Shown here in pieces: positions 11,146 through 21,774 of a stretch of DNA of 32,667 bases. The DNA lies in assembly GCA_017889265.1 (NCBI GenBank), contig JAGHEK010000068.1, positions 1 through 32,667 on the forward strand, in the 5' to 3' direction. This DNA comes from Romboutsia sp. GTDB lineage: Bacteria > Bacillota > Clostridia > Peptostreptococcales > Peptostreptococcaceae. A program made the position numbers and the translations under genes. The notes under the pieces were generated by a model. The model made no database searches. It was given only the letters and a program-made list of their open reading frames with translations, and had not been told where the DNA came from. Numbering within the stretch: the first letter of the stretch is position 1; the number at the start of each line of letters is the position of its first letter.

Positions 11146-11913
11146 TTGGCACGTAAAAAGAAAAAAGGCGATGAGATTAATACAAACGCTTGGATGGATA
11201 CTTATGCTGATACAGTAACCTTGTTATTGACATTTTTTATATTACTTTATTCTATATCATCAGTCGATGCTCAAAAGCTAAAAGAATTAGCTTTAGCACT
11301 TCAACAAGCATTAGTTGGTAAAGATAGTGTATACGAATTAGGTAGCCTTGAGGAAATTAAAATAGAAAAAGGTGATAAAGAGGCGGAAAAACAGTCCGAA
11401 AAACCACCAGGAGAACAAGGGCAAAATCAAGCTCAAAACAATACTTCTCAAGAACCTTTAAATAAAGATGAATTAAAAGAGACTTTAGAGGAAATAATAG
11501 AACAGAAGAATTTAGCAGATTCGATAAAATTAGTTGAAGATGAAAAGGGGATTATCCTACAACTTCATGAATCATTACTATTTGATTCTGGTAAAGCTCA
11601 GCTTAAAGCTACTGATGATATATTAGATGCTTTAAATACTATAATAAATAGTGTTTCTAATAATGTTTTAATAGAAGGTAATACAGATAATACACCTATA
11701 CACACTTCGGAATTTCCTTCTAACTGGGAATTATCAACTGCTAGAGCTGTCAGTGTTGCAAGACATTTTATCGACTGTGGTGTTGAACCAAAAAGAATTA
11801 CAGTTAAAGGATTTGGAGAATACAATCCAATAGCAGAAAATGATACTCCTGAGAATAAATCGTTAAATAGAAGAGTCGATATACTTATTTTAGATGAAGA
11901 AGGAGCTAATTAA
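11146..11913 (+). CDS. motB: MotB, stator anchor subunit
   Basis: 255 residues from a TTG start with GGAGGTG inside the motA end. The short basic N-terminus is followed by one transmembrane helix (YADTVTLLLTFFILLYSIS), in which the Asp of YAD is the essential ion-carrying residue. A plug/linker region rich in Gln, Glu and Lys follows. The C-terminal OmpA-like peptidoglycan-binding domain has NVLIEGNTDN, WELSTARAVSVARHF and NRRVDILI. It anchors the stator to the cell wall. The gene overlaps fliO (TAATG). Confidence 0.94.
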   Translation: MARKKKKGDEINTNAWMDTYADTVTLLLTFFILLYSISSVDAQKLKELALALQQALVGKDSVYELGSLEEIKIEKGDKEAEKQSEKPPGEQGQNQAQNNTSQEPLNKDELKETLEEIIEQKNLADSIKLVEDEKGIILQLHESLLFDSGKAQLKATDDILDALNTIINSVSNNVLIEGNTDNTPIHTSEFPSNWELSTARAVSVARHFIDCGVEPKRITVKGFGEYNPIAENDTPENKSLNRRVDILILDEEGAN

Positions 11914-12263
11914 TGGGTGATACTTTTAAATATATAATAGATATGTTAGTAGCTTTACCTATAATATTAATACTTATAATAGTATCTATAAGACTTGCAA
12001 GATTTAACCTACTAAACATAGAGAATACTCGGTATACTAAAGTATTAGAAAAAATAATAATAAGTAAAGATACTCAAATATCTATATTAAAAATGGGTGA
12101 TGAAGGCTTAATTTTAGCATCATCACCCTATAAAATAGAAAAGATAAAAGAATTATCTAAAGAAGAAATAAATATAATCGAAGAAAAAATAAAACAAAAC
12201 AAAATAAATAAAGATAATTTTAAGTTTGATTTAAAAAATATAAAAAAGTATAGAGGTGATTAA
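11913..12263 (+). CDS. fliO: FliO, export-gate assembly protein
   Basis: A 116-residue protein with one N-terminal transmembrane helix (MLVALPIILILIIVSIRL) and a small cytoplasmic domain containing EKIIISKDTQISILKMGDEG and LILASSPYKIEKIKEL, which resembles the FliO/MopB pattern (an SH3-like fold with a late LxGxxxxG-type turn). FliO helps assemble FliP into the export gate. It sits directly before fliP, as in most flagellar operons, and overlaps motB by one base. fliL, which usually lies between motB and fliO in Clostridia, is missing. Confidence 0.8.
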   Translation: MGDTFKYIIDMLVALPIILILIIVSIRLARFNLLNIENTRYTKVLEKIIISKDTQISILKMGDEGLILASSPYKIEKIKELSKEEINIIEEKIKQNKINKDNFKFDLKNIKKYRGD

Positions 12264-13221: not shown

Positions 13222-15024
13222 ATGTTATTAGCATTTATTAGAGTATCAACATTCTTTTTTTCTATGAATATAATGTTTCCAGCAGGAACACCGGGACCAT
13301 TTAAAATAGCATTTTCTTTTATTATGTCATTAATAATATCTATAGGTATTGATTTAAATGTTGAAATTGCTAATATGTATATACTTATATATATGGTTAT
13401 AATGGAATTCTTGACAGGATTAGCATTAGGATATATGACGAGTTTATGTTTTAATGGATTAAAAATTGCAGGTTCAATGATGGATATGCAATTGGGTCTT
13501 ATGATGGCTAGTATGTATGATCCAAATTCTCAAAGTCAAACGACGTTGATATCGAATATAACCCATTGGATGGGTGTTGTGATTTTTTTTATAATAAATG
13601 GACATCACATATTAATTAAGGGGATTCAACATAGTTTTGAAATAATAAAAGTTGGTGAACCTATTTTTCTTAGTAATTTTGATTACATAGTAAATGTTTT
13701 TGTTGAAGTGTTTATCATAGGATTTAGAATATCAATTCCGATTATGCTAGCACTTTTTATGAAAGATTTAATACTTGGACTTATATCAAAAAGTGTACCT
13801 TCTTTAAATGTAATGATGATATCTATGCCACTTAAAATACTTGTAGGTATCCTATTTTTTATAATGGGATTACCTTTTATAGGCCAAGAAATAGCAGATC
13901 TTTTATCTAATATAAGAGAAATATTAGAAGGTACATTAAGTGTGGGAGCATTGCCACTTGGAATAATTTTATCTAATGATGATAAGACAGAAGAACCTAC
14001 TCCTAAAAAGTTAAGAGAAGCTAGGAAAAGTGGTAACATAGCTAAAAGTCCAGAAATTTCTACTGCGATTACTCTTATCGTAATGATAGTAGTAACATTA
14101 TCTATGTCTGATAAAATATTTGTTGCTTTAAAACAAAACTTAATACATTATCTTGATTATGGATTTAGTTTTGAACTAAATAAAGCAACACTATATGTAC
14201 TTGTAAAGGATTTTTTAATATCTTTTTCTAATATATTTTTCCCAATAGGTATTATGATATTAGTATCTGGATTAGTTGGTAATTTAATTCAAACCAAAAT
14301 GCTTTTTACTACTGAACCAATAAAACCTAAATTATCGAAATTAAATCCTTTAAACGGATTTAAAAATATGTTTTCAGGAAGAGCTTTTGGACAGTTGATA
14401 AAAAGTATAGCAATAATAGTTATACTTTTTTATATAGGTGAGTCTTATTTTAATGATAATTTTATAGGTATAATAAAAAGCTCTAATATAAGTATAGATT
14501 ACCTTTATCCAACTATAATAAAGCTTGTTGGAGATCTATTAAAAAAGATTGCTATGGCTATGGTAGTCATAGCCGTACTAGATTATGCTTATCAAAAATA
14601 TAATCATAAGAAAAGTCTTAAGATGACTAAACAAGAAATAAAAGAAGAATTCAAACAAGCAGAAGGAAATCCTGAAATAAAAGGTAAGATTAAACAAAAA
14701 CAAAAAGAAATGGCTAGAATGAGAATGATGCAAGCAGTACCTACTGCCACAGTAATTGTGACCAATCCTACTCATATATCTATTGCAATCAGATATGAAA
14801 GAGGTAGAGATGAAAGTCCTGTTGTTGTTGCAAAAGGTGCGGATAACGTTGCTTTTAAAATAAGAGAAATAGCAAAAGAACACAAAATACCAATTATTGA
14901 AAATAAGCCTCTTGCAAGACTTATGTACAAAGAGATTGAGATAGATGAACAAATACCAGAGAGTATGTATAAAGCAGTTGCTGAAGTCTTAGTGGCTGTT
15001 TATAAAATGAAAAATAAACTTTAG
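13222..15024 (+). CDS. fliR-flhB: FliR-FlhB fusion, export gate and specificity switch
   Basis: A single 600-residue reading frame combines two proteins that are separate in most bacteria. Residues 1 to about 250 are FliR (FPAGTPGPFKIAFSF, LKIAGSMMDMQLGLMM, then MSMPLKILVGILFFIMGLP in approximate form). Residues about 253-600 are FlhB, starting DDKTEEPTPKKLREARKSG, with four transmembrane segments and the cytoplasmic domain. The autocleavage motif NPTH is at residues 515-518. FlhB switches export from hook to filament substrates after FliK contact. The ribosome binding site is weak (ATAGGT), so coupling to the fliQ stop four bases upstream is likely. No stop or frameshift is seen at the junction. 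The same fusion is known in Clostridium species. Confidence 0.95.
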   Translation: MLLAFIRVSTFFFSMNIMFPAGTPGPFKIAFSFIMSLIISIGIDLNVEIANMYILIYMVIMEFLTGLALGYMTSLCFNGLKIAGSMMDMQLGLMMASMYDPNSQSQTTLISNITHWMGVVIFFIINGHHILIKGIQHSFEIIKVGEPIFLSNFDYIVNVFVEVFIIGFRISIPIMLALFMKDLILGLISKSVPSLNVMMISMPLKILVGILFFIMGLPFIGQEIADLLSNIREILEGTLSVGALPLGIILSNDDKTEEPTPKKLREARKSGNIAKSPEISTAITLIVMIVVTLSMSDKIFVALKQNLIHYLDYGFSFELNKATLYVLVKDFLISFSNIFFPIGIMILVSGLVGNLIQTKMLFTTEPIKPKLSKLNPLNGFKNMFSGRAFGQLIKSIAIIVILFYIGESYFNDNFIGIIKSSNISIDYLYPTIIKLVGDLLKKIAMAMVVIAVLDYAYQKYNHKKSLKMTKQEIKEEFKQAEGNPEIKGKIKQKQKEMARMRMMQAVPTATVIVTNPTHISIAIRYERGRDESPVVVAKGADNVAFKIREIAKEHKIPIIENKPLARLMYKEIEIDEQIPESMYKAVAEVLVAVYKMKNKL

Positions 15025-15047: not shown

Positions 15048-17099
15048 ATGAATTCGAAAAAGAGATTAGATATAATAGTTGCTTTTGGTATTTTAGGTAT
15101 AGTACTTATGATAATAATACCTTTACCAACTTTTTTACTGGATACTCTTTTAGCTGTAAATATAGGGTTTTCAGTTCTTATATTACTAATGACTCTTTTA
15201 TCAACTAGTACACTTGAACTATCTATATTCCCGACAATATTACTTGTTACAACACTTTTTAGATTGGCACTTAATATATCTTCAACAAGGCTTATTTTAA
15301 GTCAAGGTACTGCTGGAAATGTAATTGAAGCATTTGGTAGTTTCGTTGTTGGTGGAAACTATGTTGTTGGGGTTGTAATATTTCTAATAATAATGATAGT
15401 ACAGTTTATGGTTATAACTAATGGTTCTGGAAGGGTTGCAGAGGTTGCAGCTAGATTTACGCTTGATGCTATGCCTGGTAAACAGATGAGTATAGATGCT
15501 GACTTAAACTCAGGTGTTATAGATGAAAAAACTGCCATTAGAAAAAGAAAAGAATTACAACAAGAAGCCGATTTTTATGGAGCTATGGACGGGGCATCTA
15601 AATTCGTTAAAGGAGATGCTACGGCTGGTATAATAGTAACACTTATAAACGTATTAGGTGGTATAATAATAGGTATAGTAATGCTTGATATGGACTTTAT
15701 GGAGGCTATTCAAACCTACGTTAGATTAACCATAGGTGATGGTCTTGTAAGTCAGATACCAGCACTATTAATATCTACATCAGCAGGTATATTAGTAACT
15801 AAAGTAAGTGGAGAAGAAAACTTTGGTAATCAGTTTGGTAAACAGTTAATATCAATACCTAAAGCAATAGCTATGACTGGTGCAGTATTATTAGTTTTAG
15901 GTCTTATGCCGGGACTTCCAACTTTATCATTCTGGTCTTTAGGAATTGGAGCCGTTGCTCTTGCATTTTTCCTTAATAAAGATGAAGCTAAAAAGAAAGA
16001 AGAGGAAAGTATCTCTCAAATAGAAGAAATAGAAACAAAACCTTCTACACCAGATATGGCAGAAGATGTTTCAAAACTTATTAGTGTTGAGCCAATAGAA
16101 GTAGAAATAGGTTACGGACTTATTCCTTTAGCTGATGAAAGTAGTGGTGGAGATTTATTACAAAGAATAGTTTCTGTAAGAAGACAATGTGCAATAGAAA
16201 TGGGTATAGTTGTTCATCCTATAAGAATTAGAGATAATTTACAATTAAATCCTAATCAGTATTGTATAAAAATAAAAGGAAATACTATGGCAATACACGA
16301 TTTGATGCCAACGATGTTACTTTGTATGAATCCTATGGGAGCTGATATAGATATAGAAGGTATAAAGACTAAAGAACCTACTTTTGGTCTTGATGCACTT
16401 TGGATAGATAAAGAAAAAGCTGAAGAAGCTGAACTTAGAGGATATACGGTTGTAGACCCAACTACTATACTTGTAACACATCTTTTAGAAATAATAAAAA
16501 ATAAATCTTATGAACTAGTTGGAAGACAAGAAGTTAAATCTATTGTTGATTCTATGAAAGAAAGATATAGTGCAGTAGTTGAAGAGCTTATACCAGATTT
16601 AATGACTATTGGAGAAGTTCAAGCGGTTTTACAAAATCTATTAAAAGAAAAAGTTGCTATAAAAGATAGAGTAACTATTTTTGAAACTTTAGCAGACCAT
16701 GCTAGAAATACAAAGGATATAGAGTTATTAACAGAATACGTTAGAATGGCTATGAGTAGAAGTATTTGTTCTGAACTTACAGATGAAAATAATTCTATTG
16801 TTGTTGCAACATTATCACCAGAAGTTGAAAATATAGTAAGTACTAATCTTCAACGTTCTGTAAATGGTACTTATCCTGCTATAACACCAGATATTACAAA
16901 TAGCATTTTTGCATCAATTCAAGGTATAATAGAAGAGGTAGATTTTAATAATAATAGACCGATAATATTAGTTTCACCAAAAATAAGGGCACCTTTTAGA
17001 AAATTAGTTGAAATGGTGTTTCCTCAGGTTACAATATTATCATTAAATGAAGTACCAAATGATATTCAGATAAAAGCACAAGGTGTTGTTAATATATAG
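15048..17099 (+). CDS. flhA: FlhA, export gate protein with cytoplasmic docking ring
   Basis: 683 residues, a normal size. The N-terminal half has about eight transmembrane segments. The FHIPEP family signature is visible near residues 136-160 (RFTLDAMPGKQMSIDADLN). An acidic linker (KKKEEESISQIEEIETK) leads to the cytoplasmic domain with PTTILVTHLLEIIKNKSYEL and the end QVTILSLNEVPNDIQIKAQG. FlhA forms the nonameric ring that receives export substrates and chaperones. In many Clostridia flhF and flhG follow; here the sigma factor gene comes immediately. Confidence 0.96.
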   Translation: MNSKKRLDIIVAFGILGIVLMIIIPLPTFLLDTLLAVNIGFSVLILLMTLLSTSTLELSIFPTILLVTTLFRLALNISSTRLILSQGTAGNVIEAFGSFVVGGNYVVGVVIFLIIMIVQFMVITNGSGRVAEVAARFTLDAMPGKQMSIDADLNSGVIDEKTAIRKRKELQQEADFYGAMDGASKFVKGDATAGIIVTLINVLGGIIIGIVMLDMDFMEAIQTYVRLTIGDGLVSQIPALLISTSAGILVTKVSGEENFGNQFGKQLISIPKAIAMTGAVLLVLGLMPGLPTLSFWSLGIGAVALAFFLNKDEAKKKEEESISQIEEIETKPSTPDMAEDVSKLISVEPIEVEIGYGLIPLADESSGGDLLQRIVSVRRQCAIEMGIVVHPIRIRDNLQLNPNQYCIKIKGNTMAIHDLMPTMLLCMNPMGADIDIEGIKTKEPTFGLDALWIDKEKAEEAELRGYTVVDPTTILVTHLLEIIKNKSYELVGRQEVKSIVDSMKERYSAVVEELIPDLMTIGEVQAVLQNLLKEKVAIKDRVTIFETLADHARNTKDIELLTEYVRMAMSRSICSELTDENNSIVVATLSPEVENIVSTNLQRSVNGTYPAITPDITNSIFASIQGIIEEVDFNNNRPIILVSPKIRAPFRKLVEMVFPQVTILSLNEVPNDIQIKAQGVVNI

Positions 17100-17114
17100 T
17101 AGGGGGTGTTGTTT

Positions 17115-17828
17115 ATGAGTATATACAACAAAGAAGAACTTATAGTTAATAATATGCCACTAGTAAGATATATAGCATCAAGGTATCATACTAAAAAAAT
17201 AGGTATAGATTATGAAGATTTAGTAGGATATGGAACTATAGGGCTGATAGATGCTACTGAAAAGTTTGATGAGAAAAAAGGTGTTAAATTCTCAACATTT
17301 GCATCTATGAAAATAACTTCTGCTATAATAGATGAAATAAGAAGATATATGCCAATATCAAGAAATTATATGGCTAAAACTAAGGAGTATAATAAAGCTG
17401 TTGATTTTTTACAAAATAAATTTTTAAGAGAACCTAGTAAAAAAGAAATAGCTGAATATATGGATATAAGTGAAGATGAACTTGAAGTAATAATTCTAAA
17501 AAATCAGACTTTATCAACAACTTCTTTAGATAATACTATATTTGAAGATGAAAAAGAAATAAAACTGATAGATACGATAGAAGATGAAAATGTTTTGTCT
17601 CCAAGTGAGTTAGTGGAAAAAGAAGAATTAACTAAAATAATGGCCAAGGCATTAGATACATTGAAAGAAAAAGATAAAATGGTGTTATCTCTTTATTATT
17701 ACGAAGAATTAACGTTAAAAGAGATAGGTCTTATACTTGGTATATCAGAATCTAGAGTTTCACAGTTAAATAGTAGAGCTTTAGGAAGATTAAAAGAGGC
17801 TATGAGAAAAATAAATTATATAGAATAG
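17115..17828 (+). CDS. fliA: FliA/SigD, flagellar sigma-28 factor
   Basis: I use ATG at 17115 (237 residues). The upstream GTG at 17106 offered by the ORF track overlaps the AGGGGG ribosome binding site itself. Region 2 is clear (NMPLVRYIASRYHTKKIGID, then YGTIGLIDATEKFD and GVKFSTFASMKITSAIIDEI). RRYMPISRN marks the boundary to region 3. Region 4 has the helix-turn-helix ELTLKEIGLILGISESRVSQ. The protein directs RNA polymerase to late flagellar, chemotaxis and filament genes and is inhibited by FlgM, encoded at the left of the window. Its location inside the early operon means it is made only when the operon is transcribed to this point. Confidence 0.95.
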   Translation: MSIYNKEELIVNNMPLVRYIASRYHTKKIGIDYEDLVGYGTIGLIDATEKFDEKKGVKFSTFASMKITSAIIDEIRRYMPISRNYMAKTKEYNKAVDFLQNKFLREPSKKEIAEYMDISEDELEVIILKNQTLSTTSLDNTIFEDEKEIKLIDTIEDENVLSPSELVEKEELTKIMAKALDTLKEKDKMVLSLYYYEELTLKEIGLILGISESRVSQLNSRALGRLKEAMRKINYIE

Positions 17829-19401: not shown

Positions 19402-20286
19402 ATGAGTGAAGTAAAAGTATATGACTTTAAAAAACCACAGAGGTTTTCGACTGATAATTTAAGATTCGTATCTGTAATAACTGAGGAATATTGTAAAAGT
19501 TTGACAAGTTTTATGGCGTATGAATTAAAAAGACCAAAGTTTAATTGTAAATTAGATAAGGTTGAACAAACAAACTACGATGAATTTGTTAGTATGATAG
19601 ATGAAGATGCTGTAATAGTTGAATATGACATGAAACCTTTAGTTAAGAATGTCATATATCAAATAGATAAGGAAATAGCACTTATACTTATAGATTTAAT
19701 ATCAGGTGGAGACGGAATTATAACTAATTTTTCAAGAGAAATAACAGAAATTGATAAAGCACTCATAAATTATACTGCAAACCAATTTTTATCAAATCTT
19801 CATGTAATAGAAACTTGTACTAGTAATGAAGTTGCAAATGTTAATAAAAATATAGCTGCAAGTAGAAAATATCCTATAAGTGAATCTGTTATTGTTGCTC
19901 ATATGAGTATACACGAAGATGATAAAGAATTAGGCAAAACTTGTTTTTGTATGCCATATACTTGTATGGAACCTGTATTATCGCAGATGGAAACTAAAAA
20001 ATTATTTAGAGATAAGGATATAGAATACGATTCAGAATTCACTAATGCTATATATAAAAATGTTTGTGGTACAACATCAGAAGTATCTGTTCAGTTAGGT
20101 GAAACAGGGATCAACGTAAAAGATTTACTTAATTTAAGTGTTGATGATATAATAACATTGGATAATGATATTAATGATGAGATACCGATATTCGTTGAAA
20201 GATCTAAATCTTTTATGGGTAAACCAGGATTGATAAAAGATAAAAGAGCTGTAATAATAACAGATATTATAAGAAAGGAAGAATAG
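19402..20286 (+). CDS. fliM: FliM, switch protein lacking the CheY-binding N-terminus
   Basis: 294 residues, about 35-40 shorter than usual FliM. The family block that normally begins near residue 40 (VYDFKKPQRFS) begins here at residue 6. The N-terminal EIDxLL-type peptide that binds phosphorylated CheY is therefore absent. The start is well supported by AGGAGGA just upstream. The middle CheC-like domain has the FliG-contacting GGxG motif (LIDLISGGDG, near residue 95), and the C-terminal FliN-like domain includes FMGKPGLIKDKRAVIITDII. FliM bridges FliG and FliN in the C ring. The body looks functional; loss of the peptide would change chemotactic control. Confidence 0.92.
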   Translation: MSEVKVYDFKKPQRFSTDNLRFVSVITEEYCKSLTSFMAYELKRPKFNCKLDKVEQTNYDEFVSMIDEDAVIVEYDMKPLVKNVIYQIDKEIALILIDLISGGDGIITNFSREITEIDKALINYTANQFLSNLHVIETCTSNEVANVNKNIAASRKYPISESVIVAHMSIHEDDKELGKTCFCMPYTCMEPVLSQMETKKLFRDKDIEYDSEFTNAIYKNVCGTTSEVSVQLGETGINVKDLLNLSVDDIITLDNDINDEIPIFVERSKSFMGKPGLIKDKRAVIITDIIRKEE

Positions 20287-20289
20287 TTA

Positions 20290-20553
20290 ATGAGTGACAA
20301 TTTTGAAAGAGTCTTAAACATAGAACTTAAAGTTAACGTTGTTCTTGGAAGAACAAAGATGACACTGAAAGATATTTTTGAGTTATCTAAAGGTTCAGTT
20401 ATAGAGTTAGATAACTCTGAAGATCAAGAAGTAGAAATATATGTTAATAATAGAAAAATAGGATATGGACACGTAGTAATAGTAGGCCAAAAATTTGGTG
20501 TAAAGATAACGAGCATTTTAGGTGAAGATGAGTTAGTAAAGACTATAAGCTAA
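20290..20553 (+). CDS. fliN: FliN, C-ring switch protein
   Basis: 87 residues, a single SpoA/FliN domain: VLNIELKVNVVLGRTKMTLK, then SKGSVIELDNSEDQEVEIYV and IGYGHVVIVGQKFGVKIT. It lacks the long N-terminal CheC-like and CheY-binding parts of Bacillus FliY. FliN forms the base of the C ring and docks the FliH-FliI export complex. It follows fliM after three bases. Together with FliM it leaves no recognisable CheY-binding peptide in the encoded switch. Confidence 0.92.
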   Translation: MSDNFERVLNIELKVNVVLGRTKMTLKDIFELSKGSVIELDNSEDQEVEIYVNNRKIGYGHVVIVGQKFGVKITSILGEDELVKTIS

Positions 20554-20577
20554 TCTATATAGCAAAGGGTGAGTAAT

Positions 20578-21744
20578 ATGAGTACAGTGTTAAAAACAAA
20601 ATATAATAGCACAGGTATACGATGTGTAGATGCTTGTTTACAATATGGAGAATTAAGATTTATAAGTAATGACGGAACTCCGACGAAAATAGAACTACCC
20701 CTTGATAAGTATGATGATGCGATATTAGAATTTGAAGAAAGAATAAATGAAGGTTTAACAAGTAACAATATAAGACCAGAAGATATTCTAAGAAAGGGTA
20801 GTGTAACCTATAATCAAGCTAAAAAATTTGCAGAAGAAGGAAAGATAAGGGGAATAAATCACTACCCTATAGATGGAAGTATAGAATGTGATAATATACT
20901 AGGTATTAGTGGAGTTGTTGAATATGCACTTGCTAGATGGGAAGGTCTTGATAAAGCAGAAGCTGTTAAAAAAGGTGTATTAAGAGCTATAAAAGTAAAT
21001 GGAGAAGATTTTGTTAGATCTATGAACTTTGGAAATGACATTGATATAAATCAGTGTTATATGCTTGCAAAATCAGCAAAAAGCATAGACAATATAATGG
21101 ATATAAAGCTTTATCAACCTAAACATTTTAATATAGGTACTAAGATATATAATAGTGTAAATGAAAAAAACAGAAAATATAGTGGATTTGATATAAAAGA
21201 TTTGAGCAATCTTGAATCAAAGGATATAATAGTAGGTATTTTAGGTGCTTTATTATCATTTGCATTGATACAGATAGTAACTAATTTTGGGGCATTACTT
21301 GGAAATAATACGATTTATTTTATTATAAGTGCTATCTTGACAACTATTGGTGGTATTATTAGTATTGCTATATTCAAAAATGCCTCATCAAAAAATAATA
21401 ATTTTTCTGGTCAAGATATAATAAACATGTTCGATGAAGAACTGGATAAAGCTGTATATGAAAATTTACTTACTTATAAGGAAATGCAATTAATACTTGA
21501 GAATATTACTCAAGGTGATTTATCAAAAATTCTTGTAGATATGAGAGGAAGTGTAAATAAAAGGGCATCTGTTAATATAATTATGGAAAAGCAAACTAGA
21601 TTTATATTGGATGCTAGATCTACTATTTCACTTCCTAGCACAGATGAAATAAAGCAAATTTTTATAAATATGGTTAATCAATATCAAGGAAAATTAGATA
21701 TAAATTACGATATAAAAAAGGTAACAAAAGAAAGTGCTGAATAA
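20578..21744 (+). CDS. Unknown membrane protein, last gene of the flagellar operon
   Basis: 388 residues from ATG 20578; the GTG at 20569 in the track falls inside the AAAGGGTGAG ribosome binding site. I do not recognise a named domain. Residues 1 to about 210 are soluble and probably cytoplasmic, with SVTYNQAKKFAEEGKIRGIN and GISGVVEYALARWEGLDKAE as the most distinctive stretches. Two transmembrane helices follow (about 216-237, DIIVGILGALLSFALIQIV; and about 244-266, YFIISAILTTIGGIISIAIF), with a short outside loop, returning the C-terminus to the cytoplasm. The tail includes KAVYENLLTYKEMQLILENI and RFILDARSTISLPSTDE. The layout recalls, from memory only, a family of unnamed bacterial membrane proteins with a glycine-rich centre. 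Tight spacing after fliN (24 bases) and the hairpin just after its stop tie it to the operon; its role is unknown. Confidence 0.7.
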   Translation: MSTVLKTKYNSTGIRCVDACLQYGELRFISNDGTPTKIELPLDKYDDAILEFEERINEGLTSNNIRPEDILRKGSVTYNQAKKFAEEGKIRGINHYPIDGSIECDNILGISGVVEYALARWEGLDKAEAVKKGVLRAIKVNGEDFVRSMNFGNDIDINQCYMLAKSAKSIDNIMDIKLYQPKHFNIGTKIYNSVNEKNRKYSGFDIKDLSNLESKDIIVGILGALLSFALIQIVTNFGALLGNNTIYFIISAILTTIGGIISIAIFKNASSKNNNFSGQDIINMFDEELDKAVYENLLTYKEMQLILENITQGDLSKILVDMRGSVNKRASVNIIMEKQTRFILDARSTISLPSTDEIKQIFINMVNQYQGKLDINYDIKKVTKESAE

Positions 21745-21774
21745 GATAATTAGTTAAAAAAGCTAATTGTCTTT
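21745..21774 (+). terminator. Hairpin ending the flagellar operon
   Basis: GATAATTAG and CTAATTGTC form a nine-base-pair stem (one G-U) around a nine-base A-rich loop, starting at the base after the stop codon. The T-run is only three long, so termination may be partial. Only 27 bases then remain before the next gene, and I see no clear promoter there, so read-through into the oxidoreductase gene is possible. Confidence 0.5.

Follow-up and report, generated by a model that had tools for sequence, protein, structure and literature searches.

The gene content of flagellar operons is generally regarded as well catalogued. Among their accessory products is FliL, a stator-supporting membrane protein whose globular domain lies outside the cytoplasm. 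In Bacillus subtilis, according to one report (PMC12327844), FlhG aids flagellar assembly by way of the C-ring protein FliY, and FlhF and FlhG set the peritrichous pattern of flagella. In Escherichia coli, yeeR is truncated in K-12, forms part of the flu-yeeR-irmA cluster in other strains (PMC6480617, PMC9431211) and is full length in pathogenic strains (PMC6480617). Its product carries the annotation "inner membrane protein", and a literature search found no reported function for it.

The locus considered here lies in a 32,667-nucleotide stretch of Romboutsia sp. DNA (contig JAGHEK010000068.1), hereafter the window, where the gene order motA-motB-fliO-fliP-fliQ-fliR/flhB(fused)-flhA-sigD-flgF-flgG-fliM-fliN ends in a gene that we call X (Table 1). 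X is conserved in the flagellar operon and yet has neither a name nor a family model. Judged by its sequence, the product is a new flagellar-operon protein that is confined to one lineage of gut and soil clostridia and derives from the YeeR-type family. Our preferred reading, to which we assign a probability of roughly 0.55, is that X, anchored in the membrane, serves the flagellar base as an accessory protein in the Romboutsia/Paraclostridium/Terrisporobacter branch and was recruited from a mobile-element family; it would then probably be an addition to the swimming motor that is peculiar to this lineage. Such a protein would open a way to learn how one flagellated lineage manages without FlhF, FlhG and FliL, would be a case of a phage and island protein family joining core cell machinery, and may offer a first functional lead for YeeR.

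Table 1. Features of X and of its flagellar operon (window coordinates)
Feature	Position	Strand	Basis
X, YeeR-like flagellar-operon membrane protein, 388 aa	20578..21744	+	ORF, orthologue alignment
Purine-rich ribosome binding site of X, AAAGGGTGAG	20564..20573	+	precedes ATG
Conserved N-terminal soluble core of X, residues 5-149	20590..21024	+	region most like YeeR family
Transmembrane helix 1, residues 217-235	21226..21282	+	hydropathy, model
Transmembrane helix 2, residues 248-266	21319..21375	+	hydropathy, model
C-terminal cytoplasmic helical domain (predicted) with conserved LT..E/GSVNK region	21376..21741	+	alignment, model
Inverted repeat 3' of X, 13-bp stem, without U-tract	21743..21773	+	fold scan
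fliN	20290..20553	+	TIGR02480, 2.4e-25, above cut-off
fliM	19402..20286	+	TIGR01397, 8e-45, under its curated cut-off
sigD/fliA (sigma-28)	17106..17828	+	TIGR02479, 1.9e-66
flhA; sigD directly after, flhF and flhG missing between	15048..17099	+	region comparison, searches
motB; fliO directly after, fliL missing between	11146..11913	+	searches, region comparison

The last gene of the operon

X is a real gene of 388 codons. Its ATG was taken as the start because every orthologue begins at a methionine aligned there, and the GTG at 20569 proposed by the ORF caller was rejected on the same alignment. The gene begins 24 nt beyond the fliN stop, and purine runs resembling its ribosome binding site precede the ATG in most orthologues. 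The original prediction, a two-helix membrane protein closing the flagellar operon, packed tightly behind fliN with its own ribosome binding site and ending at the operon's hairpin, was borne out. The inverted repeat at the 3' end (-12.3 kcal/mol, z -2.6) has no U-tract and was not flagged by the terminator scan, so that "hairpin" is a fair description and "terminator" too strong a one. No Rfam families were found in the window. Upstream, fliR and flhB are fused into a single gene encoding 600 aa (13222-15024), an arrangement seen also in C. difficile-type and other carrier genomes, with separate genes in the FliY-type branch (L034, L035).

The protein is laid out as an N-terminal domain of about 216 residues, a transmembrane hairpin with an uncharged inter-helix loop of 12 residues, and a C-terminal domain of about 122 residues, close to the ~210 and ~115 residues first proposed. 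Hydropathy placed two or more hydrophobic segments at this position in 18 of the 18 sequences tested (the window's X and 17 others), with two segments in 16 and three overlapping windows in the other 2. The hairpin itself is clear, and the charge pattern weakly favours an N-in/C-in topology. An AlphaFold model built from 19 sequences (pLDDT 76.7) predicts an N-terminal core of alpha/beta type, followed by the hairpin and then by a C-terminal domain of helices.

As predicted, no named flagellar part emerged: searches of Pfam, NCBIfam, PHROGs, PADLOC and PDB sequences produced nothing credible for X, and Foldseek of the model against PDB and BFVD returned nothing at E < 0.5. Weak Pfam matches (CRPA, IL22, DUF3319, Cas6b_C and others) were rejected, being under cut-off and inconsistent across orthologues. 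The family searches also bear on whether X, rather than being a structural or assembly factor, might regulate flagellar gene expression or secretion switching from the membrane. X does share its operon with sigD, and in C. difficile-type genomes the operon-end slot is likewise taken by an accessory gene whose product has a hydrophobic segment, but no DNA-binding, kinase or nucleotidyl-cyclase domain was found in X, and this is the least probable of the explanations weighed here.

Kinship with the YeeR family

Two Peptostreptococcaceae genomes hold long proteins, 654 and 626 aa in length, with cores that match X in HMM searches (E 1e-38 and 1e-36), at about 25% identity. HHalign of 19 X sequences against seven long ones gave a probability of 99.9% (E 2.3e-35, residues 5-359), and BLASTP reached 2e-29 in a small set. 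With the long proteins as queries, tblastn pointed to two plasmids, a conjugative one of Lactococcus and one of Selenomonas, to an Oscillospirales phage and to Ag43-type islands of E. coli; a viral scan with a single long relative as query found nothing. The relative on the Lactococcus plasmid pNCDO184A is annotated as a "glycine zipper family protein", and the E. coli relative sits at the K-12 yeeR position. A YeeR-type megablast match occurs in about half of the complete E. coli genomes (2,569/5,426).

Like X, the YeeR of CP4-44/Ag43-type islands and the pNCDO184A protein comprise a soluble core, a hydrophobic middle and a C-terminal helical domain, in that order. The differences lie mainly in what X lacks. 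Of the N-terminal block GHGFAAE..N..D...NGADR.V.G..IQ(T/S)KY, which the long relatives carry, X keeps only the end, LK(S/T)KY; where the YeeR family has a long, glycine-rich, multi-helix hydrophobic stretch, X has one transmembrane hairpin; and X carries no further N-terminal domain, unlike some of the long proteins. The long proteins are encoded on phages, plasmids or islands, whereas X lies in a flagellar operon. On this homology X is a shortened relative of the YeeR/glycine-zipper family. It descends from that family, and the flagellar branch has lost the N-terminal motif block and most of the glycine-rich hydrophobic stretch. A clear match to an unrelated family, which the original prediction had named as counting against it, was thus found in part: the YeeR-type match is there, remote as it is, but the YeeR-type family is itself uncharacterised.

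The long YeeR-type loci (L029 4205-6169, L030 4210-6090, L044 2963-5479, L045 3926-5923, L098-L104 and L106-L108) have among their neighbours WYL regulators (often), TerB-like genes (once) and serine recombinases. The N-terminal 150 residues of the L030 protein match the PADLOC model of BnzA from the Bunzi anti-phage system (E 7e-25), and L098 has a similar N-terminal stretch; this domain is absent from X. It is possible that the long proteins with the shared N-terminal block make up an uncharacterised defence or mobile-element family. An AlphaFold model of L099, a minimal long relative of 473 aa, was of low confidence (pLDDT 59.3, with the N-terminal block below 50) and had no Foldseek match, so that the idea of a PD-(D/E)XK nuclease-like fold in the block gained nothing from it.

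Distribution and linkage to flagella

Orthologues of X were found in 21 of 71 Peptostreptococcaceae genomes, spread over 10 genera. Taking the presence of fliN to define a flagellated genome (45/71, including every carrier) and its absence an aflagellate one, X occurs in 21/45 flagellated and 0/26 aflagellate genomes. Across 84,980 species genomes that were scanned, the orthologues were confined to Peptostreptococcaceae, where they occur in Romboutsia, Paraclostridium, Terrisporobacter, Asaccharospora, Faecalimicrobium, "Eubacterium" tenue and relatives; none was found in 16 genomes from the order's other families, and a class-wide search turned up only long-type relatives. Even inside mixed genera X tracks flagella, being found in the flagellated G074 and not in the aflagellate G002, G024 and G073 of genus g2, and in G082-G084 and not in G085, G086 and G015 of genus g15. 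In the rpoB tree G074 (locus L026) is nested among its three aflagellate relatives, a placement that suggests either that the flagellar locus was lost several times or that it was regained.

X is the final gene of the flagellar operon in 21/21 carriers (18 loci read directly, 3 judged from hit coordinates), and its neighbourhood next to fliN and fliM is conserved among them. It was found only with flagellar genes and inside their operon, as would be expected of an accessory protein, and the scattering among non-motile genomes that had been named as grounds for doubt was not seen. The link could still be partly passive, with X simply deleted along with the operon.

The mobile settings of the long relatives, on phages, plasmids and islands and often near WYL regulators, together with the BnzA-like domain of L030, would suit a passenger or defence gene that merely uses the flagellar operon for its expression, for example in flagellum-dependent phage exclusion, and that has no part in motility. 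This is disfavoured because X is strictly linked to flagella, occupying the same slot in all 10 genera; moreover, the family's N-terminal motif block has been lost and no mobility genes adjoin X. We hold such a role to be very unlikely, and favour the accessory protein of the flagellar base.

Selection on X is purifying, with dN/dS of 0.07-0.20 in seven close pairs. The protein nonetheless diverges faster than its neighbours, the window and L011 sharing 53% identity in X as against 80% in FliM, 95% in FliN and 88% in FlhA. In several genomes an intact X lies beside remnants of its neighbours at the main locus: of fliM and fliN in "Eubacterium" tenue (L024 7266-8000), of fliM in genus g9 (L023 7457-7700) and of fliN in G060 (L036 6149-6384).

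Copies of fliM, or of fliM and fliN, stand behind cheY in the chemotaxis operon of three genera (L037, L038, L040, L041, L043, L166), and the main-locus copies have decayed in several genomes. The che-operon FliM copies form one clade (support 92/94). Genus g13 also has X a second time, in another chemotaxis operon and again behind cheY (L019 8001-9116, L022 8001-9116, L042 4122-5237); this is a younger, genus-specific copy (100/99). Copying of a whole fliM-fliN-X block into the che operon was considered and dropped, the che FliM clade being old and the second X younger. A further FliN-domain protein of about 103-113 aa (L164 6237-6548) occurs in many flagellated genomes, in a late flagellar cluster near filament and hook genes.

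The missing FlhF, FlhG and FliL and a possible role for X

The window's operon lacks fliL between motB and fliO (region 11146-12263) and flhF and flhG between flhA and sigD (region 15048-17828). As the original prediction had noted for the immediate surroundings, flhF and flhG are missing here, and neither was found elsewhere in the genome, a draft of 88.67% completeness. FlhF, FlhG and FliL are in fact absent genome-wide from all X carriers, and flagellated non-carriers mostly have all three. Among the 45 flagellated genomes, 21 have X only, 22 have FlhF only (20 over cut-off and two short ones in genus g11), none has both and two, G003 and G011, have neither. FlhG is present only in C. difficile-type and deep FliY-type genomes and in no carrier, and is likewise missing from G003 and G011. 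For FliL the split is slightly cleaner, with X only in 21, FliL only in 23, both in none and neither in one (G003). A small CD0267-type gene in the sigD-flgF gap, found only in g11 and in g18 (the C. difficile genus, as inferred from gene content), is absent from carriers as well.

Considering these counts, X might be supposed to have taken over the work of FlhF and FlhG, guiding C-ring assembly or flagellar placement and number once the NTPases were lost. In relatives flhF and flhG are themselves accessory genes of the flagellar operon, with a possible overlap of roles, and since the B. subtilis report (PMC12327844) has FlhG working with FliY, a C-ring helper in a lineage devoid of FlhF and FlhG is plausible by analogy. 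FlhF and FlhG are, however, NTPases with no sequence relation to X, in which family searches found no GTPase or ATPase domain, be it the SRP-type GTPase of FlhF (TIGR03499) or the MinD-type ATPase of FlhG. Loss of FlhF and FlhG also does not require X, given that G011 has none of the three; G003 lacks them too. The parallel exclusion of FliL is identical in kind, so that the pattern is not specific, and because FliL and the CD0267-type gene behave similarly we downgraded this takeover from the main explanation to an unlikely one.

The same counts would suit a takeover from FliL, which like X is a small, membrane-anchored accessory encoded in the flagellar operon. A search for the FliL domain (PF03748) found it neither in X nor in genome G000, and the two proteins show no detectable homology. 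Phyletic support is equally good for a FliL substitute and for a C-ring helper of the FlhF/FlhG type, but the topological fit is worse for FliL, whose domain is extracytoplasmic, as against the two predicted cytoplasmic domains and 12-residue outer loop of X. A substitute for FliL therefore seems quite improbable.

Both takeovers share a further weakness. In the FlhA tree a single branch (95/93) splits the X carriers from G003, g11 and g18, so that the exclusions amount to about one evolutionary contrast and not to dozens, and replacement of FlhF, FlhG or FliL by X stays hypothetical. As carriers also lack FliL and the CD0267-type gene, the absences look like a single clade-wide remodelling of the flagellar operon. 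A very long outgroup branch makes the rooting of the FlhA tree unsafe, and in the rpoB tree the X-bearing group has no firmly placed root, while g5 and g15 fall in positions at odds with the FlhA tree. It is doubtful, but conceivable, that a mobile-element membrane protein recruited as a cytoplasmic-side motor part made FlhF, FlhG and/or FliL dispensable by assembling, placing or anchoring flagella in a manner that needs no NTPase.

For the accessory protein of the flagellar base that we prefer, the following arrangement can be proposed. X would be made together with FliM and FliN, and its one transmembrane hairpin would keep both cytoplasmic domains on the inner side of the membrane, possibly beside the MS ring and C ring or the export gate. 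These domains could then hold or steer parts of the switch complex or other basal-body parts, in assembly, anchoring or motor control, in a lineage where FliL, FlhF and FlhG have gone from the flagellar operon. X would work at the cytoplasmic side of the basal body, most probably by helping to assemble, anchor or control components of the switch complex; its location at the motor, its topology, its partners and the step that it serves are what we infer. The data do not favour a link of X to FliM and FliN over one to the export apparatus, the stators or regulation. What the original prediction had observed was thus confirmed, and its interpretation was supported in part: a role in place of FlhF and FlhG agrees with their absence from carriers and is weakened by G003 and G011 and by the parallel loss of FliL and the CD0267-type gene.

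X is not a universal motor part, as C. difficile-type relatives and G003 have the flagellar operon without it. No match to X was found in the eight genomes of genus g18; there and in g11 the slot behind fliN holds a TPR protein of the CD0272 type (L031 6029-7399). Like X, CD0272 of C. difficile lies directly behind fliN and has, by eye, a hydrophobic segment, but it carries TPR repeats and is unrelated in sequence, and equating the two would be wrong. The published sigD complementation in C. difficile, which used genes up to CD0272 (PMC3865298), concerns the TPR-type last gene and not X. Paralogues of the CD0272 type also occur elsewhere in most Peptostreptococcaceae genomes.
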